Assembly (NCBI GenBank): GCA_013215095.1
Contig: JABSPM010000011.1
Span: 3,613 to 67,612 of the forward strand
Direction of reading: 5' to 3'
DNA length: 64,000 nucleotides
Source: Flavobacteriaceae bacterium
GTDB lineage: Bacteria > Bacteroidota > Bacteroidia > Flavobacteriales > Flavobacteriaceae
How positions within the stretch are numbered: the first letter of the stretch is position 1; the number at the start of each line of letters is the position of its first letter. A program made the position numbers and the translations under genes. Positions 12,282 through 29,302 of the stretch are shown in pieces. The notes below the pieces were generated by a model. That model searched no databases. It was not told the origin of the DNA and saw only the letters and a list, made by a program, of their open reading frames with translations.

Positions 12282-13755
12282 CTATAGTTTAAGTATTTTT
12301 TTTGTTTGGGTTGAATTCTTATCTGTGAGATACACGGTGTAGAGTCCTTTTGGAAGATGAGAGACGTCAATGCTATTGTTTATATTTGCCTTTAGTAAAG
12401 TTTGTCCTAACATGTTTATGAGGCTTATGTTTCCATTGCCTATACCTTTAATGTGTAGTTTTTCATGTACAGGATTAGGATATAATGCAATGTTTGGGGT
12501 GTTGTTCTCTGTAATATTTAATGTATCTTCAGCTGTTACCATTTGTGTAATCTCATTCCAGCTTTCCTTGTCGTTTTCTATGTAGAGGGTTACTGTGTAG
12601 TCGCCTTCCACAGTATATTGATGTGTTGGGTGTTGTTCGTTACTCGTAGTGCTATCACCAAAATCCCACCACCAAGCTAATGCATCTTCGCTTTCATCTT
12701 GAAAATCCACTGTTAAAGGCGCTGCGTTTTGTAAACTAAAATTAACAAGTGGTTTATGACGGTCCCATAAAAAAGAAGAAGTTCTGTCTAGAATAATGTC
12801 CCAAAATTGATTAGGTTCTCCTGGCCAATCGCCGTTATCGGTACCGTGAAATTCGTGGGGTTCTCCGGTAACAAAATAGGTTTCATGTGTAATGCCCAAA
12901 GTCATCATGGTATCATGTATTAATGAGCTTCCGTCAACTTCTGGAAATGCAGGGAAGCTAAATGGGTGGTCTCGTTCAAAAGATACTGTTGTATCTGCGG
13001 TACCGTGAACTAGTAGGGCAGGAGTATAGTCTGCATTAGTAATTAGGTCTTTGGTTTGTATGGCTCCCCAAAGATTTATAATGCCGTCAGGTTGACCGTT
13101 TTCGCTAAGATGTAGCCCAATGTCTATAGGCCCCATTTCTGGAGCTTCATGAAAAAATGGAAATAACAGGTCTGTATATGTGCTAAAATGGGTTTCTGAA
13201 GATTGCTCATTTGGTTCATTCATATAAGCGGCATGTAATGCAATAAAACCGCCTGCACTGCTACCTGCCATATATACTTTGTCAGGGTCAATACCATAGG
13301 TGCTAGCATTAGCTCTTAAAAAACGAACAGCACTTCTGCCATCTTGAATGCCGCGATAGACAGCTCGCACACCATGGAGCGTTACATTTTCTAGGATATA
13401 AAAACTTTTTCTATAATCAATAGTAGCTGTAACATAGCCTTTTCGAGCAAGAGAGTCGCAAAATGCAACCATATCCTCATGGTTTCTATTGCCGTTTATA
13501 AAGCCTCCGCTATGAGCAAATATGATTGCTGGTCTAATGGATAAATTGTCACCTTGGGGTTCGTAAATATCCATGACTAAATCTGCCTCTGTTGTATAAG
13601 ATTCATCATTATAAGGGAAATTTATAAAAGGAGCAGTACCATAAACAACATTCTCAGTTTTTAATACTGCATCAAATTGTGTGGCGGTGTATCTGTAATT
13701 TTGTGCAAATATGAACGTTGTGCAGATGTAGATTAAGTGTATTCCTTTTTTTCAT
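12282..13755 (-). pseudogene. secreted alpha/beta hydrolase with PKD and T9SS sorting domains, frameshifted
   Basis: The main frame (12282-13574) encodes an esterase-like hydrolase: AHSGGFINGN oxyanion region, GSSAGGFIALHAA nucleophile elbow, LLVHGTADTTV acid loop and GEPHEFHGT histidine region. A PKD domain (WWWDFGDSTTSNEQHPTH) and a C-terminal type IX secretion sorting tail (NPVHEKLHIKG...KKILKL) follow. The frame extends upstream without stops into a good signal peptide (ICTTFIFAQ), but the ATG at 13755 is out of frame by one base because of a seven-T run (13746-13752, A7 in the gene). With six A the protein would start MKKGIHLIY. It may be a sequencing error, a recent mutation or phase variation. 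Confidence 0.8.
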
Positions 13756-13891
13756 AAATTAGGATATTTGAGGTAAAGATACTGTTTTTATAAATTGAAG
13801 AGGTGACTTAAAATGTGCCTGTTTTGAAAGAGGTCAGTGTATTGGTTAGAGAATCTAAGTCTTTTGAAAATAAAAAACAAGCTAAATAAAA

Positions 13892-13922
13892 AAAGCAAGC
13901 TCTTTATTTTTTAGCTTGCTTT
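13892..13922 (-). terminator. terminator beside attL
   Basis: Hairpin AAGCAAGCT/AGCTTGCTT with flanking A and T runs, bidirectional. It probably was the terminator downstream of tRNA-Arg before the element inserted; a similar hairpin lies at 29185-29221. Confidence 0.7.
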
Positions 13923-13933
13923 CCCTTTTATTA

Positions 13934-13954
13934 GTGACCTCGGCAGGGTTCAAA
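13934..13954 (-). repeat. attL, partial copy of the tRNA-Arg 3' end
   Basis: 21 bp containing GTGACCTCGGCAGG, identical to 29228-29248 except for one base. It is the displaced 3' end of tRNA-Arg left by integration. Confidence 0.85.
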
Positions 13955-14090
13955 TAATTAAATTCCAAAACACTTAAATAGCATCGAATACACACTTAAT
14001 CAACTGATTTTAAGTGATAAAAAATCTATTCTAATCTAAAGAAATCTAAATAAGTTTTATTTTTTCGTTACAAATTTCGTTACATTTTTT

Positions 14091-14098
14091 TATCTTTG
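14091..14098 (+). promoter_or_regulatory. -7 promoter box of the integrase
   Basis: TATCTTTG, exact TAnnTTTG match, 23 bases before the integrase ATG. A TTTCGTTACA-like direct repeat lies just upstream (14064-14084). Confidence 0.55.
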
Positions 14099-14121
14099 TT
14101 ACGATTTAATATTATAAACTT

Positions 14122-15552
14122 ATGGCTAGTTTTAGATTTCATTACAGAAGTACAAAGGACAAGGGCAATATATCCATTAGACTAATCCATAAAGAACTGG
14201 ATTGTGTTTTAGCAACACCATATATTACAAAAAAAGAATACTGGATTTACAAAACAACTAAGAACGGTAAATCTACATCTCGACATAGAAAACTGGAAGA
14301 ATTAAAAGGAGGTGTCGAACTAAAACAACACAAAGCTGATTTATTTGATTTCAAAGAGAAGCTAGAAAATCAATTAGAACGAGACTTAAATAATGGTGTA
14401 CCAATTACTAAGCAATGGTTAAAAACTGCTATCTCTGAAAACAGCTCGGTATTGGTTTCATCAGACCAAATTAACAACGAACAAGAGAGGCTAAACCAAC
14501 AGAAAAAACGCCTTTGGGAGATTAGAGAAAAAAACTTACTGCTCAATGCTATTAAAACCATCTATGCAAAATATGGCTCTAACAATGATGAGCTAAAGAA
14601 ATTTAAAACAAGTTATAATTGGGTATCTGACTATCAAGATTATAAAACTTTAACAGTAGGTCAATCAGTTGTATTAAAGGCTATAGACTATAATCAGGGC
14701 TTTATAGACGACTTTAAATATTGGGCAATTGTCATCAAGAAATACAAATTAAGTACTGCTGTAGGTCATTTAAAACGAATAAAACGAGCTATAAAATATG
14801 CTGAATCCATCGAACAAGAAGGAGTTGTTAAACTTCATAGAACCATTAATGATGTAGTGTACAGTACAAAGAGAGAACAGGAGCAACAAGAAGATAAAAT
14901 TGTTATTAGATTAACTTTTGATGAATTTGATAGGATAGACAATTTAGATTTTAGTGATAATAAAGAATTAAGAGAGGTGCAGAAATGTATGCTTATTGGA
15001 GGAGAAACAGGTTTGCGTTTTACAGATTTTGGAAAAATGAATGACAAGCATTTAAAAACTACTTTGGAAGGAGTGAAATATTGGGAGTTTAAAACCAGTA
15101 AAACTAAGAAATGGGTTCAAATAACTAAGACCGAAAGGTTAAGTTATTTCCTAAAAAAGTATGGTAATCCAAAAACCCAATATTCCGATAATGAAGATAT
15201 ATTTATCAATAAAAAGATGAAAGAAATATGCAGATTTGCAAAAATTAATGAACCAACTGAAATGGAGATAAGTCGAAGTGTTGTAATTGACAATGAAAAA
15301 TGCAGAAGATATGTTAGGGATGTTTTTCCAAAGTATATGGGTATTACAACAAGAAGTCTTAGACGTTCATTTGCAACAAATTATTATGGATTAATGGATT
15401 CAGAACTTATAATGAGGGTTACTGGTCATACTGATGTTAAATCTCTTAGAGAATACATTGATGTTCACGATAGTAGCATTGTAGCTATCAGCTTTAACAA
15501 AATCAATGAAATACATAGAAAAAGAGCTACTGGTTTAAGAAAAGTAGATTAA
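14122..15552 (+). CDS. tyrosine integrase of the tRNA-Arg element
   Basis: 476 aa. It has an Arm-DNA-binding N-terminus (SFRFHYRSTKDKGNISIRLI), a SAM-like core-binding region and a C-terminal catalytic domain: GGETGLRFTDF with the first arginine, TRSLRRSFATN (the usual HxxR box, here with Arg in the His position), GHTDVKSLREYID with the nucleophilic tyrosine. It catalyses site-specific recombination between attP and the tRNA-Arg 3' end, and lies about 170 bases from attL as expected. The gene follows an exact promoter box. Confidence 0.93.
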   Translation: MASFRFHYRSTKDKGNISIRLIHKELDCVLATPYITKKEYWIYKTTKNGKSTSRHRKLEELKGGVELKQHKADLFDFKEKLENQLERDLNNGVPITKQWLKTAISENSSVLVSSDQINNEQERLNQQKKRLWEIREKNLLLNAIKTIYAKYGSNNDELKKFKTSYNWVSDYQDYKTLTVGQSVVLKAIDYNQGFIDDFKYWAIVIKKYKLSTAVGHLKRIKRAIKYAESIEQEGVVKLHRTINDVVYSTKREQEQQEDKIVIRLTFDEFDRIDNLDFSDNKELREVQKCMLIGGETGLRFTDFGKMNDKHLKTTLEGVKYWEFKTSKTKKWVQITKTERLSYFLKKYGNPKTQYSDNEDIFINKKMKEICRFAKINEPTEMEISRSVVIDNEKCRRYVRDVFPKYMGITTRSLRRSFATNYYGLMDSELIMRVTGHTDVKSLREYIDVHDSSIVAISFNKINEIHRKRATGLRKVD

Positions 15553-15553
15553 T

Positions 15554-16738
15554 ATGTTAAAAGAATACACCAATAGGTTAACTGAATTAACCAGTCAATT
15601 TTTAGACGAATCCGATACTAAGAAGTTAGAGACACTTACAAACAATATTGAAAAATGTATTAGTAATTTATTTATTGAGAGTGACAATAAATTTACATCG
15701 ATTTTAATAACAAGATTTTAAAAACCTCTAAGCTATCATATTAGACAAATTGAGGATAATCCTATTCCAAACAGTCGTTCAAAAAAAGAACAACGACAAC
15801 AACAATTACAAGTTCTAAAATTAGCTTATTCACTTAGAAACTCTGTATTAAAAGACTATCAAGACCAATTAAACAATACTGATTATTTTCAAGACTATAT
15901 TATTGAAAAAGGAGCTGAGAGAGATTTTATAATCACTCCTGATTATAAAAGTTTACCTATTGAAGTTATTCCAATAAACACGTTTAAAACACTATTATTA
16001 AATAGCCATACGCAGACAATATCATATTTTAAAAAGCAATCTCAAATAAAACATGAAATCTATAAAGATGAACTTTATCTATTCGTTAATGATGCAAAAG
16101 TGAAAATTGCAAAATTAAATAGCTTAATAAGGAAACAAACACTTATTATAAATGAACTACAAAAGGAGGTTGATAAAGAGAAAGACTACTTACTAGACGT
16201 ACTTTTTGACCGTCAGCAAGAGGTAACGAATCATAAAATACATAAGGAAACTTTAGAAAAATTACTTGAGCAACTTTATCAAACCTTTTATTTTTTAAAG
16301 ACTTATGAAGAGAATAGGGTTATCCCTCTAACCGTTTTCGGTCATAGAAATTATGATGCTATGCAATGGTTTTATCAAGAATTAAAAGATTTCTTAGAAA
16401 ACTCAACATCATATAATCACATTATTGAAGTCTTTAGTTTGGAGAATCGAAACCCAATATCAAAAATTGAACTTGTTAATGGAACTTTGAATGACTATGC
16501 ACACTTGATAAACGAGTTAGAGCCATATTTTACAAAAGAACTAAGAGCAAGAAGTCAATATAATCAATGGTGGTCAGATAGATTTGTATTTACTACAAAT
16601 GGAAATATTAGGGTTGAAAAAACTAAAGATGCTATTTCAACAATGAGAAGTAACACGAGAAAAGACCCGTCAAGAAAATCATCAAAAAGAAGTAAAATCA
16701 ACCAAATTGTACAAACAATTGCTAATATCCCTCAATAA
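15554..16738 (+). pseudogene. unknown protein, interrupted by an in-frame TAA
   Basis: One reading frame of 394 codons starts one base after the integrase stop (ATG at 15554) and runs to 16738, broken only by TAA at codon 56 (15719-15721). The downstream part can restart at a GTG (16100), giving 212 aa. It contains charged coiled-coil-like stretches (KLNSLIRKQTLIINELQKEV) and a basic C-terminus (TRKDPSRKSSKRSK). No family is recognised; genes of this kind are common next to integrases in Bacteroidota elements. A terminator hairpin follows at 16766-16800. Confidence 0.6.
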
Positions 16739-16765
16739 TCCCTCATAAATTCATCGTATAATGTA

Positions 16766-16800
16766 CAGACTGTTCTAAATATGGGCGGTCTTTTTATTTT
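16766..16800 (+). terminator. Rho-independent terminator
   Basis: Hairpin AGACTGTTC/GGGCGGTCT followed by T5-A-T5, just after the integrase-linked gene. Confidence 0.65.
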
Positions 16801-16874
16801 TAGCAAATAAGGTTAATAGCTTTACCCCACACAACCCTCAATTTTTTGCACTCATAATTTTAAAATATATAGTT

Positions 16875-17150
16875 ATGAGTAATTTACAATTAATACAGGT
16901 AACACCTGTGCAATTAGAGGAACTTGTTAAACAAGTTATTAAAGAACAATTAGAGGAACTTAAAAAGTTTTTCACTCACAAAGAACCAGTAGAGTATTTA
17001 AGTAGACACGAAACAGCAGAAATGCTTAAAATTAATGTTTCTACGCTTCATAATTGGGTTAAGAAAGGTATTCTGAAATCTTACGGGATTGAGGGACGAG
17101 TGTATTTTAAACGCTCGGAGGTAGAACAAGCTCTTGTAGAACTTAAATAA
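16875..17150 (+). CDS. excisionase-family helix-turn-helix protein
   Basis: 91 aa. The C-terminal half is a MerR-like HTH_17 domain (VEYLSRHETAEMLKINVSTLHNWVKKGILKSYGIEGRVYFKRSEVEQAL, described by position 37-86), typical of Xis/AlpA-like recombination directionality factors; the first 35 residues form an acidic helix. It precedes the polymerase-like gene by 8 bases. It likely steers excision or represses early genes. Confidence 0.85.
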   Translation: MSNLQLIQVTPVQLEELVKQVIKEQLEELKKFFTHKEPVEYLSRHETAEMLKINVSTLHNWVKKGILKSYGIEGRVYFKRSEVEQALVELK

Positions 17151-17158
17151 TAAGAGCT

Positions 17159-18655
17159 ATGAAAACATCTACTAAGCAGGGAGATTATTTTGTTAATCTC
17201 CCTAGCTTACTGTATTCAGATTTGAAAGCAGTATGCAAGAAAGACGATAGTATCAGTTTGGAATTATCAGCCTTGTTGGTTCATCTCATTTTAACCAATA
17301 AATATGCTGATAAAAATTTTCAAGGCGGTAAAGAATGGGTTAATTTATGTGCTAAAATTCTAAGAGATAATTACAACACCAAAGAGTATAAAAGCAGTGA
17401 ACATTTAAAATTTTTGGTTGAGAATGCTATTTTAGAAATGCAATGCCACTATCACGACCCCAGTGGAAAAAACAGCCGTAGCAGAGCTTATAGAATCCAT
17501 CAGAAATATTTTGACATCAAAGAGAAAGGGAAAACACTATTTGATAGAGCGTTTGCTATTATTCCAGTCACAGAATCAGGGATTAAAAAGAAATGTTTAA
17601 AACGTATTCAACAAAGAAAACAAAAAGCCAACCGAAAAGTTAGTCATTTAACAAAATGGCTTACCAGTGATAAATTCAAATTTGATAAAGCAACAGCAAT
17701 TAAATTTGTTGAATCTAAATATGTAAAACAAGAAGGAAAAAAAGATAAAAGGCTGTTCCATATCAAGAACTTTGAAGCAGCATTACAAATCTATTCAATG
17801 GAGGGTCGAGATAACAGATTACATTCTTGTTTTACTGCTTTATCATCAGACTTAAAACAATTTATAACATTTGATGGCAAACCATTAAAAGAAGCAGATA
17901 TAAAGAGTTCTCAACCATTTATTTTAACCATAGTTTTAGACCTTATTATTAAAGAGTACCATAAACAAATCAATAAGAAAGGTTATATAACAGTAACACA
18001 TTTTACTAAAAGAATTACTAAGCTATTGTATAAATATTTAAATACTACAATAGATAATGTTATAGATATTTACAATATGTGTTATTATATTACTTCTAAT
18101 GTGTTAATTAATATTCAAACCACTGATATTAAATGTATTGAGAAATTCATTTTTTCAATTAGAAGTGGAGATATTTATGAGCAAGTTGGTAAAGAATTGT
18201 TTCAGTCTGGAGCTATTTGGCTTGAAGATGGCATCTACTATACCAAGCTGTTAAAAAAAGATTCTAAAGAGCAAACTATAGAACCTTTTGAAACATTACG
18301 CAAATGTGCAAAAACCATTACTTTAAATGCTATTTATTGCAGTCCTAAAACCAAGGCTGTAAGAGCAGTTAATGAATTTAGAAAACTATTTCCCATTGTT
18401 ACCAAATGGTTAGATGCTTTGAAGAAGCATAATTATTCTGATTTGGCAGTTCTAATGCAACAAATGGAAGCAAAAGCCGTATTGCTTCATTGCTCAAAGA
18501 AGATAGCAGAGAAGCACCCTAAACTACCTCTAATCAGCCGACACGATAGCCTTTCTACAACCATTGATAATTTTGATGTTTTGCACTCCGAATATCAGGT
18601 GTTATTGACTGATTATTTTGGGGTAAATGTAGAGGTCGGGAAAGAGGATTGGTAA
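17159..18655 (+). CDS. putative family A polymerase-like protein of the element
   Basis: 498 aa, not confidently assigned. LKEADIKSSQPF (Asp247) resembles motif A of family A polymerases (D-x-S-x-x-P), LRKCAKTITLNAIYC resembles motif B (R-x3-K...Y), QQMEAKAVLL resembles the helix before motif C, and SRHDSL resembles motif C (HDE with Ser for Glu). The N-terminal 200 residues are basic with a possible helix-turn-helix. These marks suggest a divergent polymerase or replication protein, possibly inactive since the motif C acid is replaced. It lies directly after the HTH gene and is the last plus-strand gene before the restriction operon. Confidence 0.5.
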   Translation: MKTSTKQGDYFVNLPSLLYSDLKAVCKKDDSISLELSALLVHLILTNKYADKNFQGGKEWVNLCAKILRDNYNTKEYKSSEHLKFLVENAILEMQCHYHDPSGKNSRSRAYRIHQKYFDIKEKGKTLFDRAFAIIPVTESGIKKKCLKRIQQRKQKANRKVSHLTKWLTSDKFKFDKATAIKFVESKYVKQEGKKDKRLFHIKNFEAALQIYSMEGRDNRLHSCFTALSSDLKQFITFDGKPLKEADIKSSQPFILTIVLDLIIKEYHKQINKKGYITVTHFTKRITKLLYKYLNTTIDNVIDIYNMCYYITSNVLINIQTTDIKCIEKFIFSIRSGDIYEQVGKELFQSGAIWLEDGIYYTKLLKKDSKEQTIEPFETLRKCAKTITLNAIYCSPKTKAVRAVNEFRKLFPIVTKWLDALKKHNYSDLAVLMQQMEAKAVLLHCSKKIAEKHPKLPLISRHDSLSTTIDNFDVLHSEYQVLLTDYFGVNVEVGKEDW

Positions 18656-18767
18656 CTGTTTTTGATGCTCTTACAGCTCCTCTAAGAGACTTTCTATTAT
18701 CAGGCTAAGAAGTAGCTAGAAGTTAAAAATAAAAAGCTCAGAGGAGTTGTTTCAAAAAAATGAAAAT

Positions 18768-19190
18768 CTACTGGTCATTTGCATTCAATGGAGGAACTTC
18801 TCCAAATTCTTGAAAGTACGAATTTAATATCTCAGACTCCCTTTCTTTAGGGTTGTTATGTTGACTTAGCTCAATATATAAGCTGTGGTAAGGGTAGTTA
18901 TCTGATATTCTTGAATTTCGATTGTATCTCCTGCCACCACTATGATTGGTTGATTTATATTTTGTAGGATGGATAACTTTTTGAAGCGTGATTATCCTGT
19001 TGACAAAACTATCTGCTTTACCAATGTATAGGATTCCGTTTATGTCAGTTTTAAGTAACCTGTTTATTGGTTTTCTTTGTTCATTCTTTTTACTAAACAA
19101 TTTATAGACACCTCCACTATTTCCGAAATCATCATCAATAAGATTCCAAAGATTAGGGGATGAAAGTTGATAAATTTTGCTCAAACTCAT
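18768..19190 (-). CDS. GIY-YIG-like nuclease-fold protein
   Basis: 140 aa. GGVYKLF...NGILYIGKADSFVNRI matches the two short strands of the GIY-YIG fold, and a Glu in KERESEIL may supply the metal ligand. Such domains cut DNA in homing enzymes and in some restriction enzymes. It is the last gene of the type I restriction operon; the start overlaps the stop of the next upstream gene by one base. Whether it restricts DNA or is a bystander is unknown. Confidence 0.65.
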   Translation of the reverse strand: MSLSKIYQLSSPNLWNLIDDDFGNSGGVYKLFSKKNEQRKPINRLLKTDINGILYIGKADSFVNRIITLQKVIHPTKYKSTNHSGGRRYNRNSRISDNYPYHSLYIELSQHNNPKERESEILNSYFQEFGEVPPLNANDQ

Positions 19191-20020
19191 TATTCTTGTT
19201 GTCTGTAGATTTCATCTAATGTTTTCCCCTCTTTATTTTTCCAAACTAACCAACCATTATTACTGCTACCAATACAGAAATCAGCAGCGGTACTTGGGCT
19301 TTTAAAGGTGTAATCTTGGGTTAAGACTAACTTATTATCAACAGTTTTGGCAGTTTGCTCGATTATTTTTTCTCGTTTAGTTTTCCAACCAAATGAAGGA
19401 ACAGTATCTTTTGAAATAATACTATCTTTTAAAATGGTAAAACCACTGCCATCATAGTACCCTATCGCTTCTGAGCTTCTGTAGTTTGTATAAAAAAGCT
19501 TGTTCGATTTCTTGATGTTTACAGAATCTTTGAAGATGGGTAAATTGATAAAATCTGTCACGTATATAACATCTCTAAAAAAGCCTTCTACACTATCTTT
19601 AATATGTCGTTGCACATTTGGTTTTTTAGGCTTTTGTTTGTTCTCTGATAAATCAAAACGATTGATTTTTAAGCCTTTTTCTATTGCCAAATATTCCAAG
19701 TAAAGCACCTCGGTTTTGTTTATAGAATTAGCCTGAGAAATGAAGACAACGGCTGTTTCCCAAAAATCTTTCTTTTGGTTATGCTCATAAACTCTATCAA
19801 TAAAATTATCTGTTTCACCAATGTAAGCTTTTGGTTTTATAGAACTACTTTCTTCAAAAAGTATATACAGACAAGAGGTTTTTAATTCATCTAGTTTTTT
19901 TGCTTTCGTTAAATCAGCTCTTGGAATAACAAAAGTCATAATGTTGCGATTGCTAATTTGAATACTTCTAATTCCGTTAGGAGTGCCTTCTATTAGATGT
20001 GTTGTGATTACTTCTCCCAT
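19190..20020 (-). CDS. GIY-YIG protein with C-terminal DUF4357
   Basis: 276 aa. The N-terminal GIY-YIG domain (SCLYILFEES...AYIGETDNFIDRVYEHN, about 45-85) is followed by a linker and a DUF4357-like C-terminus (AIGYYDGSGFTILKDSII...SPSTAADFCIGSSNNGWLVW). This architecture is often encoded with type I restriction-modification systems; its exact role is not established. The gene overlaps its neighbours by one base on each side, inside the hsd operon. Confidence 0.8.
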   Translation of the reverse strand: MGEVITTHLIEGTPNGIRSIQISNRNIMTFVIPRADLTKAKKLDELKTSCLYILFEESSSIKPKAYIGETDNFIDRVYEHNQKKDFWETAVVFISQANSINKTEVLYLEYLAIEKGLKINRFDLSENKQKPKKPNVQRHIKDSVEGFFRDVIYVTDFINLPIFKDSVNIKKSNKLFYTNYRSSEAIGYYDGSGFTILKDSIISKDTVPSFGWKTKREKIIEQTAKTVDNKLVLTQDYTFKSPSTAADFCIGSSNNGWLVWKNKEGKTLDEIYRQQE

Positions 20021-20541
20021 TACTTACGTTTTGGTGTTGTTAATTTTGCAATAGCTCCTTTACCAATAATCTTTAAAAAGAACTTCTGCCGTATTCTATT
20101 TTCATAGACAATCTCTATTTCGTATTCAACCTCACTAATAGGTTTCTCTGAATTATTTATGGTAAAAATCCATCTTCTTGTAGTGTCGGTAATTATATTT
20201 TCATTAAATATTGGTTCAAGTTCATAAGGTAGATGTTTATTTCGTTCATCAAGGATTAAATCCCCTTTGATAATCTTGAAATCTAACAAATTACACCATT
20301 CTCCTTTATTATTAATATCAAAATTAATCTTATTCTCATCCGCTCTTTGTTGAACTCCATTTAACCATAAATGAGGTTGATATTTTAACTCTAAATCTCT
20401 TTCTAAAACCTTTGCAATCTTCGATAAGTCAGATATGGTTTTACTTTTTTTGCTGTCCTTGTAAAAAAGGTAGATAAGTGAAAAAAATGTTGCTAATGCA
20501 CCAACTGAGGCACATATATGAAACATATCTTGTAACTGCAT
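20020..20541 (-). CDS. membrane-anchored protein of the restriction operon
   Basis: 173 aa, unrecognised. A single N-terminal transmembrane helix (about 8-27, ICASVGALATFFSLIYLF) is followed by a basic coiled segment and a beta-rich soluble domain. It lies 6 bases after hsdR and overlaps the GIY-YIG gene, so it is co-transcribed with the restriction system. A membrane partner in a type I operon is not usual. Confidence 0.65.
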   Translation of the reverse strand: MQLQDMFHICASVGALATFFSLIYLFYKDSKKSKTISDLSKIAKVLERDLELKYQPHLWLNGVQQRADENKINFDINNKGEWCNLLDFKIIKGDLILDERNKHLPYELEPIFNENIITDTTRRWIFTINNSEKPISEVEYEIEIVYENRIRQKFFLKIIGKGAIAKLTTPKRK

Positions 20542-20547
20542 AATATT

Positions 20548-23500
20548 TTAATTTTTTATCTTTAAATCTTTCTCAAAATCAAACAACAATTGCCCTAATC
20601 TGCTTTCGGTTTCTTTAATAAAAAAGTCTCCGAGTTGCTCTCTGTTTCTGCGTTTAAATTTTCTGTACACCTTGGCAAAATCTGAATTGATTTCATCTTG
20701 GTCAAATACATTGCCATCATCAAGAATTTTAGTAGCTACACGTTTCCCTAAATCATCTTTTAGTGCAAACTCAAAAAACAGCTCTATTTTTTCTTCAAAA
20801 CTTATAATCAGTTGTTCTATTTCGGCTTCTTCTTGATTACGTTTTTCAATTACTTTTAGAATATCAAACTTGTATTGTTTGCCTTCATTGCCATTAGGCT
20901 CTTTTACGCCACTAGTAACAGGATTACCTACTGGATAATCTTTAGGCTCAACAATTCCTATTCGGTTATCAAAGTAGATTTCTACATCGTCAATGATGTC
21001 ATTTGTTCTATTAATGTTGTTGTAAATATTGTTGAACCTTCTCCAAAATTTTAAGAATATCTTATCGCTGTATTTTGGATTATAAACGATTACAAATTCT
21101 ATAAGGTTAAGAATGTTAAAATACTTATTTACCTTATTCTTAAACAGTTTACTGGCTTTTGGGTTACCCTCTATAAAATATATAGCATCATCTTCAAACT
21201 CTGTGATTACCTCTAAAGTGCTATTACCTTCTAAATAAGATTTAAAGTTCTCGAAATGGTCTTCAAACAAATCACTTTGTCTTAACTCATTGTAATATAC
21301 TTCTAACAGTTTTTCGCTTTCTAGCGGATTAAAATCACTAACAACAACATTGCTAAAATGTTCAAATGCCTTTTGAATGTTCTTGATATTTACGTTCTTG
21401 TACGAGAAGTCGACAATCTTGCAGTCATTCTTATACTTAGTAGTTCGGTTAACTCTGGAAATTGTCTGAATAGCATTAATACCACTAATCTCCTTGTCTA
21501 AAAATAAGGTTTGTAGTTTAGGTTCGTCAAAACCTGTTTGTAGCTTATCTACAACAATGATTAGACCGTTTCTTTTATGCTTGAACTCTTGCAATACCTT
21601 TTTCTCTGTTAGACCTTTGTTTAAAGATTTTGGATTGGGATAGTTCTGTTCATCTGAATTACTATAAACGATAAAAATAGGTGCATCTTTAAAACGGCTA
21701 TTGTGATTACTTAATAGCACCTGCTCATCAAAGTACTTTTGAATATGTTCTTTGTACTTAATAGCTGAGGTTATAGAAGCAGTTCCTAACATTGCTTTTG
21801 CAGTTCCTCTTATCGTTGGAAAAACTGTAGTAAGTAATCTATCAACTATAAATTTCGAAATTGCTTGTATGCGTTCTTCATTCTCGTATATTTTTTTCTT
21901 ACGGATTCTATATTTTTTCCCATTTTCATCAATTCCTGTATCAGTTCCGTTAGGTATTTCTTCCTTATATAAAGCACCTTCAAAGCCTTCTAATTCATCA
22001 TCTGGTTTTTCAAAGTACATTTTAGAAGATACTGGCACAAGCCCTTTTAGAGGGTTCAAAATATACTTATCCTTAATTGCCTCTGCCATCGTATAACTAT
22101 CAAAAGGAATCCACATTTTCTCTCCTTCGGCATACTTATTAAATTCACCAAAACGAGCTAAAGTATGGTCACTAGGTGTGGCTGTAAAACCAATGATAAT
22201 ATTTTTCTTTTGCTGTGCTTTTAGATATACTTCACTTGTATCAAAGCTGTTTTGTAACTCATCAAACAAATAGGTCATCTCTTCGTGCTGAGTACCACTA
22301 TTAGAACGGTGTACCTCATCAATTAAAAAAGCAACACGCATAGAAGCTAAACGTACCAAAGCCCCTTCGTTATTATCTAAAATATCTTTTACAGATTTAA
22401 ACTTTTGCAGATTAACTACTACGATTCTAACATCGGATTCTAAGGCTTTCTTAAACTCTGATTTATCAGAAGCTTCAATGAACATTTTGTTATTGATGTT
22501 CATATTATACATCTTGGTATCGAGTTGGTCTCTTAATTGAAGTCTATCTACAACCAACATTATTTTATCATAAACAAACTCACCATCTCGTCTAAGGTCT
22601 TTGAGTTTTAAAGCTGTCCAACCTATGATGTTACTCTTACCAAATCCTGCTGCATATTGCAGTAATAAAGAATAGACGTGTTTGTTGTTTTGGTACTTTT
22701 TTCTGTTGGTAATGAGTTCTTTAATGATAGGCTCAGAAACTTTTTGTTCTTTTAGTTTCTTCTCAAATTGTTTAATGAAATAATCAACTTCGTTTTCGTG
22801 GGTTAAGAACTCATCTATCTTGCTGATAATCTTATCAACTCCAAACTTTTGTTTTGGTCTAGGTGCAATCAGCCTACCATCATTATGCTTGTATTCTTTC
22901 TTTTTAGATTTTTCATTAACGACCAATTCACGTTCTAAGAAGTTAAAGTAACGTATCTCATCTTCAATACTTTTTTTGCTGTATAAGGCTTTAAAAACCT
23001 CTTCAAACTTAGTTGTACGTGATACATTTTTATTGAGTAGTGGAACGCTTTTAAAGCTCTCTTGAAATACTTTCTTTTTATAGTTTTCAAAATCGTAGCT
23101 TCCATTGTTATACACCGTTTTTATTTCATCAAAGTAGTTACTGATATTACGGATAACGTAGGTGTTATTAATATCCGTTGTAGTGATATGTATAGCTTTT
23201 TCAAACAGCCAGAGCATATCTTTACGAATGGTTTGTGATAGGTCATTCTTACCTGCAATGTCTAAGTATTTGCATACTGCTTGTTGATAGTCCTTAACTA
23301 TCTTATTACGTCCGTTCTTTTGTGCATTCTGATTGTTGTAATTACTCTTCAATTCACTGTAACCAAAGTAAATACCATTGATAAAGAACGTAATATCTGG
23401 ACGAAACGAGAATAGGCGTTTATTGTCGTGCCTGTAAGTAAAAGGTAATTCCTGAATAACAGAAAAAATATTTTCATTGAAGAGCTTATCTTCTTCTAAA

Positions 23501-23832
23501 GGTGAACCACTAGGATAAAACAAATAGAACTCTTCTCCGTGAAACGTAATACCCTTGTTAAGCAATAAAGCAACGTTAGTAGCACTTTTAATACGTTGTT
23601 CTACCAAGGTCATAAACTCATCTAGTAACTGGGTTTCGTCTCCTATCTTTTTAAGTACTTTTTTATAACTCTTTTTGTTATGTGTCGTTTGACTAATGAA
23701 GTTCTTTAAGTCGTTAACAATAAAGTGCTTTGGTGAAACAGTGTTTGCTTTAACCTCTTGGTACTGCAAACCGTTTTTGTCTTCGCTTAAAAACTTAACT
23801 AAATATTTGTCTTGTAATTGTAATTCTATCAT
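20548..23832 (-). CDS. hsdR: type I restriction enzyme, R subunit
   Basis: 1094 aa. An N-terminal PD-(D/E)xK nuclease region (FRPDITFFINGIYFGYSELK) is followed by SF2 helicase motifs: GFGKSN (motif I, near residue 395), LIDEVHRSNSG (DEAD-like motif II, near 505), GFTATP (motif III, near 550) and QTISRVNRTT (motif VI, near 790). It translocates DNA and cuts unmodified DNA when bound to HsdMS. It overlaps the hsdS stop by one base. Confidence 0.95.
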   Translation of the reverse strand: MIELQLQDKYLVKFLSEDKNGLQYQEVKANTVSPKHFIVNDLKNFISQTTHNKKSYKKVLKKIGDETQLLDEFMTLVEQRIKSATNVALLLNKGITFHGEEFYLFYPSGSPLEEDKLFNENIFSVIQELPFTYRHDNKRLFSFRPDITFFINGIYFGYSELKSNYNNQNAQKNGRNKIVKDYQQAVCKYLDIAGKNDLSQTIRKDMLWLFEKAIHITTTDINNTYVIRNISNYFDEIKTVYNNGSYDFENYKKKVFQESFKSVPLLNKNVSRTTKFEEVFKALYSKKSIEDEIRYFNFLERELVVNEKSKKKEYKHNDGRLIAPRPKQKFGVDKIISKIDEFLTHENEVDYFIKQFEKKLKEQKVSEPIIKELITNRKKYQNNKHVYSLLLQYAAGFGKSNIIGWTALKLKDLRRDGEFVYDKIMLVVDRLQLRDQLDTKMYNMNINNKMFIEASDKSEFKKALESDVRIVVVNLQKFKSVKDILDNNEGALVRLASMRVAFLIDEVHRSNSGTQHEEMTYLFDELQNSFDTSEVYLKAQQKKNIIIGFTATPSDHTLARFGEFNKYAEGEKMWIPFDSYTMAEAIKDKYILNPLKGLVPVSSKMYFEKPDDELEGFEGALYKEEIPNGTDTGIDENGKKYRIRKKKIYENEERIQAISKFIVDRLLTTVFPTIRGTAKAMLGTASITSAIKYKEHIQKYFDEQVLLSNHNSRFKDAPIFIVYSNSDEQNYPNPKSLNKGLTEKKVLQEFKHKRNGLIIVVDKLQTGFDEPKLQTLFLDKEISGINAIQTISRVNRTTKYKNDCKIVDFSYKNVNIKNIQKAFEHFSNVVVSDFNPLESEKLLEVYYNELRQSDLFEDHFENFKSYLEGNSTLEVITEFEDDAIYFIEGNPKASKLFKNKVNKYFNILNLIEFVIVYNPKYSDKIFLKFWRRFNNIYNNINRTNDIIDDVEIYFDNRIGIVEPKDYPVGNPVTSGVKEPNGNEGKQYKFDILKVIEKRNQEEAEIEQLIISFEEKIELFFEFALKDDLGKRVATKILDDGNVFDQDEINSDFAKVYRKFKRRNREQLGDFFIKETESRLGQLLFDFEKDLKIKN

Positions 23833-25151
23833 TAGGCAGTGACTTTTATTTTTCCTGTTACTACATCGTTAATTAAGGTCTTACGTAACTCTTTTAAGGT
23901 TATGATTTGGTCTTTGATAGTATCAATGATGGTGTCAATTGTTTGCGTTTTGGTATCTAAATAATCAGCTATTTGCTGTTGTTCTTCCCTAGAAAAAAAA
24001 CAAACCTTCAAATGCCTCACGTTTCCTTGATTTATTCCTTCTTGTGCACCGCCAGTCATTAAAGCTCTTATACTTTCTCTTTTAGACATCAAGTAATAAT
24101 AATAGTAACGATTGTATATATTCTTCTCACTAGAAGTCATTGAAACAATAGATTGATTAATAGTTGTGTCAAAGTTTAAAAAACCTACATTAGAACAAGT
24201 CGCACCAGTTAATGCGATTAATACAGAACCTTTAGAAGCTAATTTAGTAGAGCTTCGATTCAGAGCCTCTTCTGATATATAGTGTTTTACGATTTCTTTA
24301 TTTACATTGTTGTTTTGAATTGCACCAGATGGAATCCAAGGAATTGCACCTGTCCAAAACGAGCTATTTTTTGTTGAAGGTGTACCTCCTGACAAAGTCT
24401 TGAATAAATCTTTAATTCGTTTTACTTCCCAATGCTCAGGAATTTGACCAATCCATTCAATACCACTATCTTTTAGTTTTACGTTTTTATCTAAACCCTT
24501 GGTTACAGTTTCATTAATCAAGCTTTTTCTTAGGTTTTGGTAATGTTCTATTTTTTGTTCTAATAGGTCTATTTTCTTATCAATAGCTGTTGTTTTTTTC
24601 TCTAAGTAATCTGCTATTTGTTTTTGCTCTTGGATTGGTGGTAGTGGAATTGAGAATTGTCTAGTTTCTCCCATACTTAGACCTTCTCTTGAACTTCCAG
24701 ATTGAATTAAATTTATATAATCTTTAATTAGGTTAGACTTAATATACAATGATATGAATGGGACTAACTCTTTACTAGCTCTTAAATAAAGAATATGCTG
24801 ATTAATATTAGCTTCTTCAAGACTATCAGGTACAATACAACTTCTTCCAATAGATGCACCAGTAATATTTATCAATATATCTAAAGGTTTGATTTGTGAA
24901 TTTTGCATCTTTTGATGAGTTTCACTATCTATATATGAAACATTATCTAATTTCAAACCATTATCATAAACATTCTGACTTCTTAAAAAAGTAATTCCAG
25001 TAGTTTTATAGGATTCACTACCGCCTTTTGGCGTAACACCACTACCCATTTTTTTAGCGACATCTTTAACTCTTTTTACTTTCCAATGTTCTGGAACTTT
25101 ACCTAGCCAATGAACCTCTGAATCTTTGTATTTTGAATACTGCTTTATCAT
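23832..25151 (-). CDS. hsdS: type I restriction-modification, S subunit
   Basis: 439 aa. Two target-recognition domains, each introduced by a similar segment (HWLGKVPEHWKVKRVKD near 14-30 and WIGQIPEHWEVKRIKD near 232-248) and each ended by a helical spacer (EQKQIADYLEKKTTAIDKKI and EQQQIADYLDTKTQTIDTII). It sets the bipartite DNA specificity. It overlaps hsdM by 4 bases. Specificity cannot be read from sequence. Confidence 0.95.
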   Translation of the reverse strand: MIKQYSKYKDSEVHWLGKVPEHWKVKRVKDVAKKMGSGVTPKGGSESYKTTGITFLRSQNVYDNGLKLDNVSYIDSETHQKMQNSQIKPLDILINITGASIGRSCIVPDSLEEANINQHILYLRASKELVPFISLYIKSNLIKDYINLIQSGSSREGLSMGETRQFSIPLPPIQEQKQIADYLEKKTTAIDKKIDLLEQKIEHYQNLRKSLINETVTKGLDKNVKLKDSGIEWIGQIPEHWEVKRIKDLFKTLSGGTPSTKNSSFWTGAIPWIPSGAIQNNNVNKEIVKHYISEEALNRSSTKLASKGSVLIALTGATCSNVGFLNFDTTINQSIVSMTSSEKNIYNRYYYYYLMSKRESIRALMTGGAQEGINQGNVRHLKVCFFSREEQQQIADYLDTKTQTIDTIIDTIKDQIITLKELRKTLINDVVTGKIKVTA

Positions 25152-27241
25152 AAGCTTAATTGGTTTTCAAGGTCTTTTAAGGCAGTTTCTAACTGGTCTA
25201 GGTCTTCTAAGATATTTGTTACAGGACGTAATTGTTCAGGTTGGTAAAACACCTTGTTAAAGTTTATTTCAACACCTGTAAGCCTATCTAGGTATTCAAA
25301 AGGTCTTGTGATATACGTAGCCATAAAATCAACTATATTCTGTTCGTTCTTAACTTCATTAGGGCTGTATGGTATTATCTCATAGTCTTTCTCAGTATCA
25401 GGTGTTAATTCGCAAGTAATGTTAATACTTGCATCTTTGGTTTTAGTTGCTTTTTTAAAACTTGCTTTCATCACAATTTTACCACAACCTAATGCCGTTT
25501 GTTTGCCGTTTTCTTCTTTTATTAATGTTTCTTTTTCACTATCATACCAATAGATAGGATTTTCAGTAAACACCTTTAAATCTTCTTCTTTATAATCAAG
25601 GTTGTTAATCATTGGTTTTATAGCCTCATCAAAGTAAGCTCTGAGATTAACGTACTTTGATTTGTCAAATTCTGTGATTACAAAATCTGTTATCGTTGTT
25701 GTATCATTTTCAGCAGTTTGTTCAATCTTTAAAGGCTTTAGCTTTATGGATTTAGCAGGAACTTTTTCACCTTGTCTATTTTTAATCAAAGGCATCTCTA
25801 TAGCTTTACCATCTTCATCGACATTGGTTAATTGTATAAACTGCTTGTTATAATAAAAGTACCATTTCTCAAAGACCTTAGAAATATCTGTATTCTCAAA
25901 GTTGGTTAACTCGTCAACAATACGTTTTCTGTCTTCTTCTATAATTTCTCTACGCTTTTTACCTTTACTCTTTTTAAGCATTGTAAACAGACCAGAAGCA
26001 TCAATTAAGATAACCTTATTTTTACGTTCAGCAGATTTATTTTTATTAATCACCCATAAATAGGTGTGAATATTGGTGTTGAAAAATTCATCTTTAGGTA
26101 ACTGTATTAAAGCCTCAACCCAATCCTGATTAAATAAGTAGTTTCTTATGCTGTCTTCACCACTTCCTGCATCGCCACTAAAAATAGAAGCTCCGTTATG
26201 TACCACAACTGCTAAACCATTATCATCATCTAACTGAGATACGATATGTTGTGCAAATAGCATTTGACCATCACTAATAGAAGGTAGAGCTTTAAAACGG
26301 TTAGTTTGGTCATTGAGAATATCTTTTTTATAACCATCCCAAGGAATACCATAAGGCGGATTAGCCACAATAACATCAAAGCGTTTATCAGAGAACTTTA
26401 AGCCTGTTAATGAGTTACCATACTTTATATGAGAATCTTTACGGAATCGAGATTCGATTTTTGCCAAGGCATAAAGGGTATCATTCCAGTCTTCACCATA
26501 AGTAGCCGTTAGTCTGTTAGGATAAATATTATTGATACGCTCTTCTGTACCAAAGAGCATATTTCCACCACCACAGGTAGGGTCATATATGGTTAAAAAC
26601 CTGTTATTATCATCAATTTTGGAAGTAATAATTTCAGCAATCAAAGCAATTATATCATCAGGTGTATATTGCTCTCCTGCTGTTTCTGCTGATATATCAG
26701 CCCATTTGCGTTTTATGTGTTCTTCTAAGGTGGTAATTTCTGAATTATTAAAAGGCTCTAAGTCAATTTCACTCCAAGCTTTTGCGAAAGCAAAAAGAAT
26801 TTTTTTCTTTTTCAATTGTCCTACAATCCCTGATACATTTAAGAACTTCTCATCTTCATTACCTGCATTCACACCAAGTAGTCCTTTTGTTTCAGCATCA
26901 TAAGCCTCTAAGTAAGCATCAAAATCTAGCTTGAATGTACTATCATTTTTACAGATGCTTTTAAGCGTTTTATTGTGCTTAATGACATATTCATTATACC
27001 CTAAGTTTAGGTCTTCAAACTCTTCTAAGTAGTCTTCTAACTCTTTTTTTGAAAATTCAGAAACAGAAGCAACACCATAGTCTTTTAATAATATTTTAGA
27101 TTCTCTCAGTAGTCTACTTTCAACCATAAGCAGACCAAAGAAGGGCATCATAAACTTTGGGAAATCAGATTGTTTTATTCCTGCTCCAATTAATAGGTCG
27201 GCTGTTTTCCAAACATCAGATTCGTACTGTAGTACATTCAT
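25148..27241 (-). CDS. hsdM: type I restriction-modification, M subunit
   Basis: 697 aa, longer than classical HsdM. N6-adenine methyltransferase motifs are DPTCGGGNMLFG (motif I, near 218-229) and VANPPYGIPWD (motif IV NPPY, near 293-300). The N-terminal helical domain and a C-terminal extension with LTGVEINFNKVFY are present. It modifies host DNA at the HsdS target. It is the first enzyme gene of the operon, one base after the XRE regulator. Confidence 0.95.
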   Translation of the reverse strand: MNVLQYESDVWKTADLLIGAGIKQSDFPKFMMPFFGLLMVESRLLRESKILLKDYGVASVSEFSKKELEDYLEEFEDLNLGYNEYVIKHNKTLKSICKNDSTFKLDFDAYLEAYDAETKGLLGVNAGNEDEKFLNVSGIVGQLKKKKILFAFAKAWSEIDLEPFNNSEITTLEEHIKRKWADISAETAGEQYTPDDIIALIAEIITSKIDDNNRFLTIYDPTCGGGNMLFGTEERINNIYPNRLTATYGEDWNDTLYALAKIESRFRKDSHIKYGNSLTGLKFSDKRFDVIVANPPYGIPWDGYKKDILNDQTNRFKALPSISDGQMLFAQHIVSQLDDDNGLAVVVHNGASIFSGDAGSGEDSIRNYLFNQDWVEALIQLPKDEFFNTNIHTYLWVINKNKSAERKNKVILIDASGLFTMLKKSKGKKRREIIEEDRKRIVDELTNFENTDISKVFEKWYFYYNKQFIQLTNVDEDGKAIEMPLIKNRQGEKVPAKSIKLKPLKIEQTAENDTTTITDFVITEFDKSKYVNLRAYFDEAIKPMINNLDYKEEDLKVFTENPIYWYDSEKETLIKEENGKQTALGCGKIVMKASFKKATKTKDASINITCELTPDTEKDYEIIPYSPNEVKNEQNIVDFMATYITRPFEYLDRLTGVEINFNKVFYQPEQLRPVTNILEDLDQLETALKDLENQLSL

Positions 27242-27242
27242 T

Positions 27243-27458
27243 CTATTGTAAATCTTTTTTATCTAATAATAGTTCTTTCACTTCAACTCCAAGTATATCA
27301 GCAATCTTATATAGGTCTTCCAAACTCGGTTGCCTTCTATTCGCAACGTATGAGTTGACCATATTATAGCTTTTTCCAAGCTGTTCAGATAACCAAACTT
27401 GTTTTATACCTTTCCTATCCAGAACTTCTTTTATTCTGTTAAATTTTATATCAGACAT
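27243..27458 (-). CDS. XRE-family HTH regulator, controller of the hsd operon
   Basis: 71 aa. A complete Cro/CI HTH is visible (RIKEVLDRKGIKQVWLSEQLG and RQPSLEDLYKIADIL, residues 5-60). It is one base upstream of hsdM, the usual place of a controller protein that delays restriction on entry into a new host. Confidence 0.9.
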   Translation of the reverse strand: MSDIKFNRIKEVLDRKGIKQVWLSEQLGKSYNMVNSYVANRRQPSLEDLYKIADILGVEVKELLLDKKDLQ

Positions 27459-27819
27459 AACTATATGAAGTTAAAAAAACATCTCATCTTATGAGTGTAA
27501 AACTAATTATTATATTGTACTTACGAAAGAATTATTTCTATATTTGTGAATCATTAAATATGAATATATAGTAAAGACAAATTAGAAAAATAGAATAACG
27601 GAAGCGTTAGATTGTTGTTTAACAAGGGAAATCGGCAAAATTTCAAAACAGTAAAAACAGCAAGTATAATGTTCCCGTCCAGTATGGACGTTGGGATGTA
27701 CTTGTTTACTGTTGGCTTTGCCGAGCCTCCCTGTTGCAAGGTCTGAAACCTCAACGTCTTCTTTTTGATATGTATTTAACTTTCATCTTGGGGTTTGATG
27801 GAGCAAAGCAAATTTCATT
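27459..27819. other. intergenic region with possible structured RNA
   Basis: No gene is seen. The stretch 27660-27770 contains short inverted repeats (CGTCCA-GTA-TGGACG near 27678-27692) and GC-rich blocks unlike the surrounding AT-rich DNA. It also holds the promoter region of the hsd operon (minus) near 27480-27550. Confidence 0.35.
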
Positions 27820-28209
27820 ATGAAAAAAACTATCAAATTTTTTACCGCAATTCTTATCGTATTCTTCGTATTAAGCTGTTCAAGCGACGACGATAACAAT
27901 AGTCAATCTTTATCAGTAGAAATTGTTGGAAACTGGTCAGGTACATTTTCGGGAGAAGATACAGGAACTTGGAATATCAATGTATCAGAATCAGGAGAAG
28001 TAACAGGCACAGGATTTTCAACAACTTTTCAAGAGAACTATATATTTGAAGGTAGCGTAAATTTGGACGGTCAATTAAATGCAACGGTAGGCACTTCAAG
28101 TACAGGAGCTACATTTGTAGGTGTATTAAATACAAATGGTACTGGTTCGGGAACTTGGAACAATTCGGATGCAGATTTAAGTGGTAACTGGGAAGGGAAT
28201 AAAGATTAA
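27820..28209 (+). CDS. small lipoprotein
   Basis: 129 aa. A lipoprotein signal peptide ends at LSCSSDDDNN (Cys20), with the acidic residues after the cysteine that mark surface export in Bacteroidota. The rest is a Gly/Ser/Thr-rich beta domain with repeated GNWSGTFSGEDTGTW-like segments, as in small lipocalin-like proteins. Function unknown. It is followed after 3 bases by a small membrane protein. Confidence 0.75.
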   Translation: MKKTIKFFTAILIVFFVLSCSSDDDNNSQSLSVEIVGNWSGTFSGEDTGTWNINVSESGEVTGTGFSTTFQENYIFEGSVNLDGQLNATVGTSSTGATFVGVLNTNGTGSGTWNNSDADLSGNWEGNKD

Positions 28210-28212
28210 GTT

Positions 28213-28398
28213 ATGAAAAAGGTTTTTAAGACTTTAGCAATGCTTTACCTATTATATAGCCTATTTGCTATTCCTATAAGTTTTACATCAAGTTATCATA
28301 AAACATCAGATGTTATTCATATTCTCTTGTTTTTTGTCACTATTATTTTTGCATTAGCTAGTTGTATGTTGATTTATAAGAATGTTAAACAAGAATAA
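28213..28398 (+). CDS. small two-helix membrane protein
   Basis: 61 aa with two hydrophobic helices (about 6-24 and 34-56). It sits 3 bases after the lipoprotein gene and 3 bases before the next ORF, so it is probably co-transcribed. Not recognised. Confidence 0.5.
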   Translation: MKKVFKTLAMLYLLYSLFAIPISFTSSYHKTSDVIHILLFFVTIIFALASCMLIYKNVKQE

Positions 28399-28401
28399 AA
28401 A

Positions 28402-28753
28402 ATGTTATTTATTGATAGATTGTTGCATAATAATAAGCTGTTAAAAGTCTACCTAGATTTAGAACTGGAGTTTTACGAATTAGACTTTGTAAACCTTAAC
28501 ATTAATTTTGTGTATAACGAGACTGATTTTTATAATAAGGCTGTTAAAGGTATTCCTGCATATTTACAGTTAGAGAAGTCAAGCAAAAAAAGCCTATGAG
28601 TATTTTCCTGATGTGGACTTAACAAGATTACAGAAAAATCAAAGATACGGTATCATAGGGTTTAAGCATTTACGGTCTTTTTCTACAAAAGCTGTTCTAA
28701 CAAAAAGCAGTTTAAGGCTTAGTAGTATTAAGTTTAAAGAACATAAAATATGA
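28402..28753 (+). pseudogene. small unknown gene frameshifted in an A7 run
   Basis: The frame from 28402 ends at 28599 just after a run of seven A (28585-28591). With six A it would continue without a stop as KAYEYFPDVDLTRLQK to 28753, giving about 117 aa. No family is recognised. This is the second gene in the window with the same A7 lesion. Confidence 0.5.
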
Positions 28754-29228
28754 CAGCAATAGCAGAAAATACTATAAAGACCTTGTATGTATGTTTTTTG
28801 AGAAAATTAGAGGACTTAGGGTGTGTATATAAATCTTCCTCCCCTTGCTCAAAAAGAAAATCGGATATTATTTGAGGGGGTGGAGTATGTGATTTTAGCT
28901 TTTAGTAGAAATTTTTCAACTTTTTTTAAACAGACAATGAGAGCTGTTAAGGTACAACCTTAGCAGTTTTTTTGTTGTATAGGGAAAACCTATGCTTTGT
29001 GACATCATATTAAAAAAGACAATTGATTTATCGTAGTAATATAAAGGGATTAGCAAGGTAAGACTAAATTGTCTTTTGGTTTGTATTTGGTAAGTCTGAA
29101 ACTTCTGTTTTGTTTGTGTTTCAACAAAAAACAAATATTTTCGTTACAATTACCGTTACAAATTGGAGTAAATTAGTACAAATAAAAAAGCAACTAACTA
29201 ATAATCAGTTAATTGCTTTTTATTCTTG
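28754..29228. other. right end of the integrative element, no clear gene
   Basis: AT-rich DNA without a credible ORF; the terminator at 29185-29221 and attR follow. Confidence 0.5.
29185..29221 (-). terminator. terminator downstream of tRNA-Arg
   Basis: Hairpin AAAAAGCAA-TAACT/AGTTA-TTGCTTTTT, just past the 3' end of tRNA-Arg on the minus strand. Confidence 0.75.
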
Positions 29229-29248
29229 TGACCTCGGCAGGATTCAAA
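29228..29248 (-). repeat. attR, tRNA-Arg 3' end
   Basis: 21-bp direct repeat of 13934-13954 (one mismatch), overlapping the tRNA 3' end. Confidence 0.85.
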
Positions 29249-29302
29249 CCTGCAACCTCTTGAGCCGTAATCAAGTGCACTATTCAGTTATGCTACGAGG
29301 CC
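29229..29302 (-). tRNA. tRNA-Arg(ACG), integration target
   Basis: Acceptor GGCCTCG/CGAGGTC, anticodon stem CTTGA/TCAAG, loop TTACGGC (anticodon ACG), T arm GCAGG/CCTGC. It reads CGN codons after A34 deamination. The intact gene survives because the element carries its own 3' end. Confidence 0.93.

Follow-up and report, generated by a model that had tools for sequence, protein, structure and literature searches.

A type I restriction operon on a tRNA-integrated island and a GIY-YIG/DUF4357 nuclease that accompanies unrelated type I systems

In the available parts of the papers cited here, a methylating defence system combined with a nuclease for whatever slips past it is an established pattern. 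BREX is paired with the type IV enzyme BrxU (PMC8565348), the immigration control region of E. coli combines a type IV nuclease with a neighbouring methylating defence (PMC12707154), and EVE proteins adjoin hsd operons with the same second-layer logic (PMC7641849). In CMoRE/PD-T4-3, a GIY-YIG nuclease, the C-terminus senses modification (PMC12923530). Fusions of GIY-YIG with RAMA have been proposed as modification readers; the accessible part of that source also reports a failure to confirm that the RAMA protein MPND prefers 6mA, and states that modification-dependent enzymes are expected alone, without methyltransferase neighbours (PMC11037411). DUF4357 occurs in GmrSD homologues and with GIY-YIG (PMC4619093). 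A GIY-YIG gene beside hsd genes has been noticed before, next to hsdS on a Lactococcus plasmid, for which the authors offer restriction or homing (PMC4420470).

The locus described here lies in a window of 64,000 nucleotides, the whole stretch of DNA that was analysed, from a Flavobacteriaceae genome of 3.07 Mb over 118 contigs. All seven ORFs of the original prediction are found at 18768-27458 on the minus strand, in the order XRE-hsdM-hsdS-hsdR-TM-GIY/DUF4357-GIY140. The first encodes an XRE/HTH_3 regulator of 71 aa (27243-27458; Pfam HTH_3). HsdM, the type I adenine methyltransferase (697 aa; 25148-27241), matches Pfam N6_Mtase at an E-value of 1.8e-49 and PADLOC MTase_I, and contains the motifs DPTCGGG and NPPY. 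HsdS (439 aa; 23832-25151) has two target recognition domains, seen as two Methylase_S stretches. HsdR, the restriction and translocation subunit (1094 aa; 20548-23832), carries the Pfam domains SWI2_SNF2, ResIII and T1R_D3-like, a D..ExK site at residue 146, DEVH, motif VI and a P-loop-like AAGFGKS; its score against NCBIfam TIGR00348, 143.9 bits, is under the cut-off of 284.55. Judged from sequence, an HsdM, an HsdS with two target recognition domains and an HsdR that joins a nuclease to an SF2 motor make this a type I system. As in type I hsdMSR systems generally, the full M, S and R core looks complete, with intact motifs; the difference is that three co-oriented genes are added after hsdR. 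They encode a 173-aa protein with one N-terminal hydrophobic segment (20020-20541), a 276-aa GIY-YIG/DUF4357 nuclease of the PDC-S14 type (19190-20020) and a single-domain GIY-YIG nuclease of 140 aa, GIY140 (18768-19190), all three on the minus strand like the hsd genes.

In transcription order the six junctions measure +1, -4, -1, +6, -1 and -1 nt. The operon had been expected to run without gaps through overlaps of one to four bases, and this is correct for four junctions (hsdM/hsdS with 4 bases; hsdS/hsdR, TM/GIY-DUF4357 and GIY-DUF4357/GIY140 with 1 base each), while tiny gaps of 1 and 6 nt separate XRE from hsdM and hsdR from TM. Upstream of the operon, at 27515-27546 on the plus strand, lies a divergent promoter-like stretch (TTG, 21 nt, TATATTTG), which we take to resemble the Bacteroidetes promoter consensus.

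The 3' end of tRNA-Arg is duplicated at 13934-13954: this 21-nt repeat agrees at 20 of 21 nt with 29228-29248, within the tRNA-Arg(acg) gene (29228-29302, minus strand), and no further copy with up to five mismatches occurs on either strand of the window. Together with a tyrosine integrase gene on the plus strand (14122-15552; Pfam Phage_integrase), this repeat defines an integrated island of 15.3 kb at 13934-29248, with a GC content of 31.3% compared to 33.1% and 32.9% in the flanks. The island also encodes, on its plus strand, a small HTH protein that looks excisionase-like by eye (16875-17150) and a 498-aa protein for which a replication role is a guess (17159-18655) and for which the Pfam scan gave no informative match. 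Relatives of the integrase and HTH genes adjoin the hsd operons of three other loci (L047, L095 and L096), the first of which has a relative of the 498-aa gene as well. At locus L071, an ORF that looks integrase-like by eye directly follows a tRNA-Asp gene. A search for tRNA-Arg/apt DNA in 40 relatives, in which loci L099 and L100 were opened, did not show an empty insertion site.

The cores most similar to the one in the window reveal how variable the stretch after hsdR is. In the closest one found (L095:12789-16971, genome G133), HsdM is 66% and HsdR 63% identical to the window proteins, and the hsd core is followed, with a 1-base overlap, by a gene for a 130-aa protein with three hydrophobic segments; 9 nt further comes a DUF5655 protein matching PDC-S18, and then other genes including one for a Beta protein. 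As in the window, a membrane protein thus precedes a candidate nuclease. A core on a Planktothrix plasmid (HsdM 56% identical) has no co-oriented gene directly after hsdR. The post-hsdR stretch thus differs among all three cores. On a Planktothrix plasmid, a MazF/PemK-type toxin gene and a small partner lie between hsdM and hsdS (L101:8472-9037). We considered the three extra genes as one conserved module and rejected the idea, as relatives of each occur apart.

The 173-aa protein has its sole hydrophobic segment at residues 6-27 by hydropathy, and the rest belongs to no known family; neither it nor the 140-aa protein matches a Pfam, PADLOC or NCBIfam model at an E-value of 0.1. A single-sequence fold of the 173-aa protein had a pLDDT of 37.4 and was set aside. 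The protein is rare: we accepted one other copy in 299 genomes of the family, one in a phylum sample of 395 and one more in a class sample of 375, after dropping matches in G642 (E-value 4e-5, a 402-aa frame) and G811 (5e-4, an internal stop). A search of the G414 family returned the known copy only (1 of 56). In two of the three accepted relatives the gene follows a restriction subunit, in L035 at a distance of 14 nt, where HsdR is 22% and the TM protein 61% identical to the counterpart in the window, and in L068 131 nt behind a Res gene, the locus being called type III-like because of N6_N4_Mtase and ResIII domains. The third has metabolic genes on both sides (L078). The protein may tether a component to the membrane, and the membrane localisation that had been suggested for the operon is possible but thinly supported, two relatives speaking for it and the one among metabolic genes against. 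In genome G102, to which L035 belongs, the type I operon is enlarged by PIN-domain and GmrSD genes, and the gene for the TM protein comes immediately behind hsdR (L071:7728-11501 and L035:1-8231). We rejected the idea that the TM gene or the 140-aa gene came from phages, as 50,697 phage records gave no match; viral-contig scans gave none for the TM protein and one relative of the 140-aa protein.

The 140-aa protein belongs to the GIY-YIG superfamily, as judged from conserved residues and predicted fold. GVY, YIG, R65, E118 and N136 are invariant in 6/6 alignment rows, and the model (pLDDT 90.6) gives VIA Z-scores of 8.6 with T4 EndoII, 7.2 with the UvrC N-domain and 6.8 with I-TevI. Foldseek ranks 1-13 are all GIY-YIG entries, with a best E-value of only 0.011. 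A profile match to 8fje at 5e-8 proved to be a short repeat and was set aside. The relatives come from two other genomes of the 299, two genome contigs, one Klebsiella plasmid and one viral contig; one (L036) is an 85-aa frame with a stop within the matched stretch. Those on the 5.7 kb Klebsiella plasmid (L070:3217-3657) and the viral contig (L077:7971-8411) are closely similar to each other and have no hsd genes nearby. None of the six relatives is near HsdM or HsdS, and we rejected GIY140 as a type I partner; it is probably an independent DNA nuclease, carried, like the TM protein, as further cargo.

Much of this would be expected if plain clustering of defence genes had assembled the locus, that is, if the extras merely travelled on a mobile island, each for itself and functionally unconnected to type I restriction. 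The island with its integrase and repeat, the absence of hsd genes around GIY140 relatives, the wholly different extras behind a related hsd core and the TM relative among metabolic genes all fit such an explanation. We consider it unlikely, though it deserves serious weight, and the evidence against it comes from the 276-aa nuclease.

This protein matches the PADLOC profile of PDC-S14, a single-gene anti-phage candidate, nearly end to end (residues 2-274, E-value 1.5e-78). The Pfam GIY-YIG match is barely above the cut-off (22.8 against 22.6 bits), and that of DUF4357 is far above (71.6 against 38.4 bits). The DUF4357 region also overlaps a weak Pfam RAMA match (E-value 5.8e-5) whose 23.4 bits are under the cut-off of 35.2. 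The catalytic residues Y52, Y66, R76, H80, E109 and N127 are invariant in all 31 rows of the alignment, and so is Leu54, at the position of the third tyrosine. Both GIY-YIG proteins of the window deviate from the GIYxY-YIG motif in having Leu as the second residue after the GIY tyrosine, and their two families match each other, profile against profile, with a probability of 48.7. Four profile searches against solved structures returned no firm relative, with UvrC and I-TevI at E-values of 0.3 to 0.8, and no anticodon-nuclease domain is among the Pfam, PADLOC and NCBIfam matches of the three extras. The literature searched, with preprints and many subscription papers outside its reach, yielded no functional study or mechanism of GIY-DUF4357 (PDC-S14). 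The gene is present in 27 of the 299 family genomes, the source genome counted, and a viral-contig scan gave one relative.

Linkage to type I genes sets this nuclease apart from GIY140. In 16 of the 26 family loci an HsdM or HsdS gene is found no further than about 8 kb away, compared to 1 of 20 control regions (Fisher p = 6e-5). The controls, hand-placed, one per genome, in 19 GIY-DUF4357 genomes and G102, are arbitrary genomic regions and not other defence genes, so the comparison cannot tell type I linkage and general clustering apart. Among plasmid and viral loci, a non-random choice of 10 of 43 GIY-DUF4357 plasmid records plus viral contig L112, the corresponding count is 6 of 11, which is not independent because the Hsd profile seeds (8 M, 7 S and 8 R) include plasmid and viral loci; none came from L038-L063. 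HsdR was excluded from both counts because its profile also matches other helicases (L106 and L109). An hsd-type match in the same co-oriented gene run, with such HsdR-profile helicase matches counted, occurs in 18 of 37 loci. Ten of the 26 family loci and 5 of the 11 others lack both HsdM and HsdS within the stretch. Some loci are truncated by contig ends. The second nuclease layer that had been proposed for the three extra genes is thus backed by linkage for GIY-DUF4357, and not for GIY140. Likewise, a survey of gene order, named as a check, finds GIY-DUF4357 recurring with hsd genes, but the extras do not stay together as a set of three, and related cores differ in them.

The positions of the nuclease gene vary. 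On Alteromonas and Acinetobacter plasmids it is flanked by hsdS and hsdR, in Parabacteroides and Salinibacter it follows hsdM, and in B. uniformis it is divergent from the hsd operon. The Variovorax, Paenarthrobacter and Exiguobacterium plasmids have no restriction subunit near it; in Rhodococcus only a large DEAD/DEAH helicase is near, and in Rhodothermus a helicase and a DNA methyltransferase lie on the opposite strand, with no match to the HsdM and HsdS profiles. The viral contig carries hsdM-hsdS-GIY/DUF4357-GmrSD-like (L112:185-16846), with an HsdR match at 13387-16846 and, upstream of hsdM, a gene that looks reverse-transcriptase-like by eye. On a maximum-likelihood tree built from 37 copies, of which 23 are linked and 14 unlinked (L060 left out for its split frame; long branches for L110, L111 and the window), linkage requires 6 changes compared to a mean of 11.4 in shuffles, with counts as low as 6 in 0/500 shuffles for the label hsd and 1/500 for the label none. 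Linkage to hsd genes is therefore clustered on the tree, yet has switched several times. This grouping, together with the two plasmids on which the nuclease sits between hsdS and hsdR, argues against defence-gene clustering as the whole explanation.

The same two plasmids, and the several operons in which the nuclease adjoins hsdM, could instead point to a partner subunit, recruited by HsdM-HsdS or following HsdR to shred or finish cutting the target DNA. The identities of the proteins, compared for 18 of 37 loci, make this rather improbable. In L038/L040 the nucleases are 98% identical while HsdM is 30% and HsdS 29% identical; in L054/L055 the values are 84% compared to 31% and 23%, and in L102/L103 79% compared to 25% for HsdM and 26% for HsdR. 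The opposite pattern, with nuclease and HsdM similar to the same degree, is seen in L052/L056 (93% and 90%) and L045/L051 (89% and 93%). Closely similar nucleases thus accompany unrelated type I systems, whether through nuclease transfer or through hsd replacement around the nuclease. A nuclease that changes hsd families in this way is not expected to bind one of them tightly, and the stand-alone copies argue against a dedicated subunit. Exchange also bears on a guardian role, in which the nuclease would lie dormant, as a back-up or suicide effector, until a phage blocks the type I complex, like PrrC with EcoprrI. The location of GIY-DUF4357 within type I operons and the PrrC precedent, in the part of the source available (PMC12707154), are in favour; a specific inhibitory contact, however, is unlikely for a nuclease exchanged between HsdM families that share about 30% identity, and in 10 of 26 loci there would be no HsdM or HsdS at hand. 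We give this role a slim chance.

DNA alignments narrow the exchanged unit to a single gene. When the linked family loci were aligned, 15 of 16 (all but L057), the nuclease ORF proved common to 96 of 105 locus pairs, and in 80 of the 105 nothing outside it aligns at an E-value of 1e-8. In L038/L040 the shared DNA is 95% identical over 854 nt and the block ends within 9 nt of the ORF. Shared DNA that often ends near ORF ends might suggest a selfish, homing-type element that spreads itself and lands near hsd genes by chance. Homing copies an element into homologous flanks. The flanks, however, fail to align in those 80 pairs, and the linkage to hsd genes would be left without explanation, so we regard a selfish gene as very improbable, even though homing was raised for the Lactococcus gene in the accessible text (PMC4420470).

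The explanation that we favour, tentatively and at somewhat less than even chances, is a type I system carried by an island integrated at a tRNA gene, in which the stretch after hsdR is exchangeable and GIY-DUF4357 is a portable, modification-reading nuclease of a second layer. The linkage, the exchange of one gene and the invariant catalytic residues are observed, and modification reading and defence are inferred from them and from precedents; the copy next to a GmrSD-like gene on viral contig L112 also speaks for this explanation. From what is known of the family, the hsd core would methylate self DNA and cut unmodified DNA. GIY-DUF4357 would be a separate portable nuclease that accompanies many type I systems and not that of the window in particular. 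Its C-terminal part would read a base modification, as type IV enzymes do, and it would cut phage DNA that escapes type I cleavage through modification while ignoring the 6mA made by HsdM; with methyltransferases so often adjoining, it is hardly likely to be triggered by the 6mA of type I sites. The precedents of methylating systems with a second nuclease, of CMoRE and of GIY-YIG-RAMA fusions, together with the weak RAMA overlap, lead us to favour a second layer of this type IV-like kind. What speaks most against modification reading is that HsdM or HsdS near 16 of 26 loci is the opposite of the stand-alone occurrence expected of modification-dependent type IV endonucleases. The RAMA score under its cut-off, the unconfirmed preference of MPND and the 10 of 26 family and 5 of 11 other loci without HsdM or HsdS also count against the favoured explanation.

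A wider proposal, distinctly unlikely in our estimate, is that type I systems have a portable partner nuclease. GIY-DUF4357 would sense a state common to type I action or phage countermeasures, not a given sequence, and so persist while the adjoining hsd genes change; a small membrane protein encoded right after the restriction subunit, which occurs in two unrelated forms and follows type I as well as type III-like subunits, would anchor restriction at the point of phage DNA entry. If the favoured explanation is true, type I operons are platforms that combine one constant second nuclease with restriction cores that change, and DUF4357 joins the readers of DNA state as a new member. L038 and L040, with nucleases 98% and HsdM proteins 30% identical, make it directly testable if a single nuclease works with unrelated type I systems, and hence if there is functional coupling or mere clustering of defence genes.

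Compared with known systems, as far as the cited sources were available, the nuclease combines familiar elements in a different setting. PDC-S14 was listed as a single-gene candidate, and here it is a member of a type I operon. Like CMoRE/PD-T4-3, GIY-DUF4357 has an N-terminal GIY-YIG nuclease and a separate C-terminal domain (PMC12923530), but the window proteins are without the GIYxY-YIG motif and the C-terminal domain of the 276-aa protein is DUF4357. With wH-GIY-YIG and GIY-YIG-RAMA fusions it shares a GIY-YIG domain joined to a possible 6mA-reading domain (PMC11037411); it differs in having DUF4357 in place of wH, a RAMA match below the cut-off and frequent methyltransferase neighbours. 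PrrC is, similarly, an extra nuclease gene within a type I operon (PMC12707154), but PrrC, an anticodon nuclease, is embedded within a single type IC locus, whereas the GIY-YIG protein is found beside unrelated hsd sets. As in BREX with BrxU (PMC8565348) and the E. coli immigration control region (PMC12707154), a methylating defence adjoins a second-layer nuclease; there BREX or hsd genes are combined with GmrSD, Mrr or McrBC, and here GIY-YIG/DUF4357 shares one operon with hsd.
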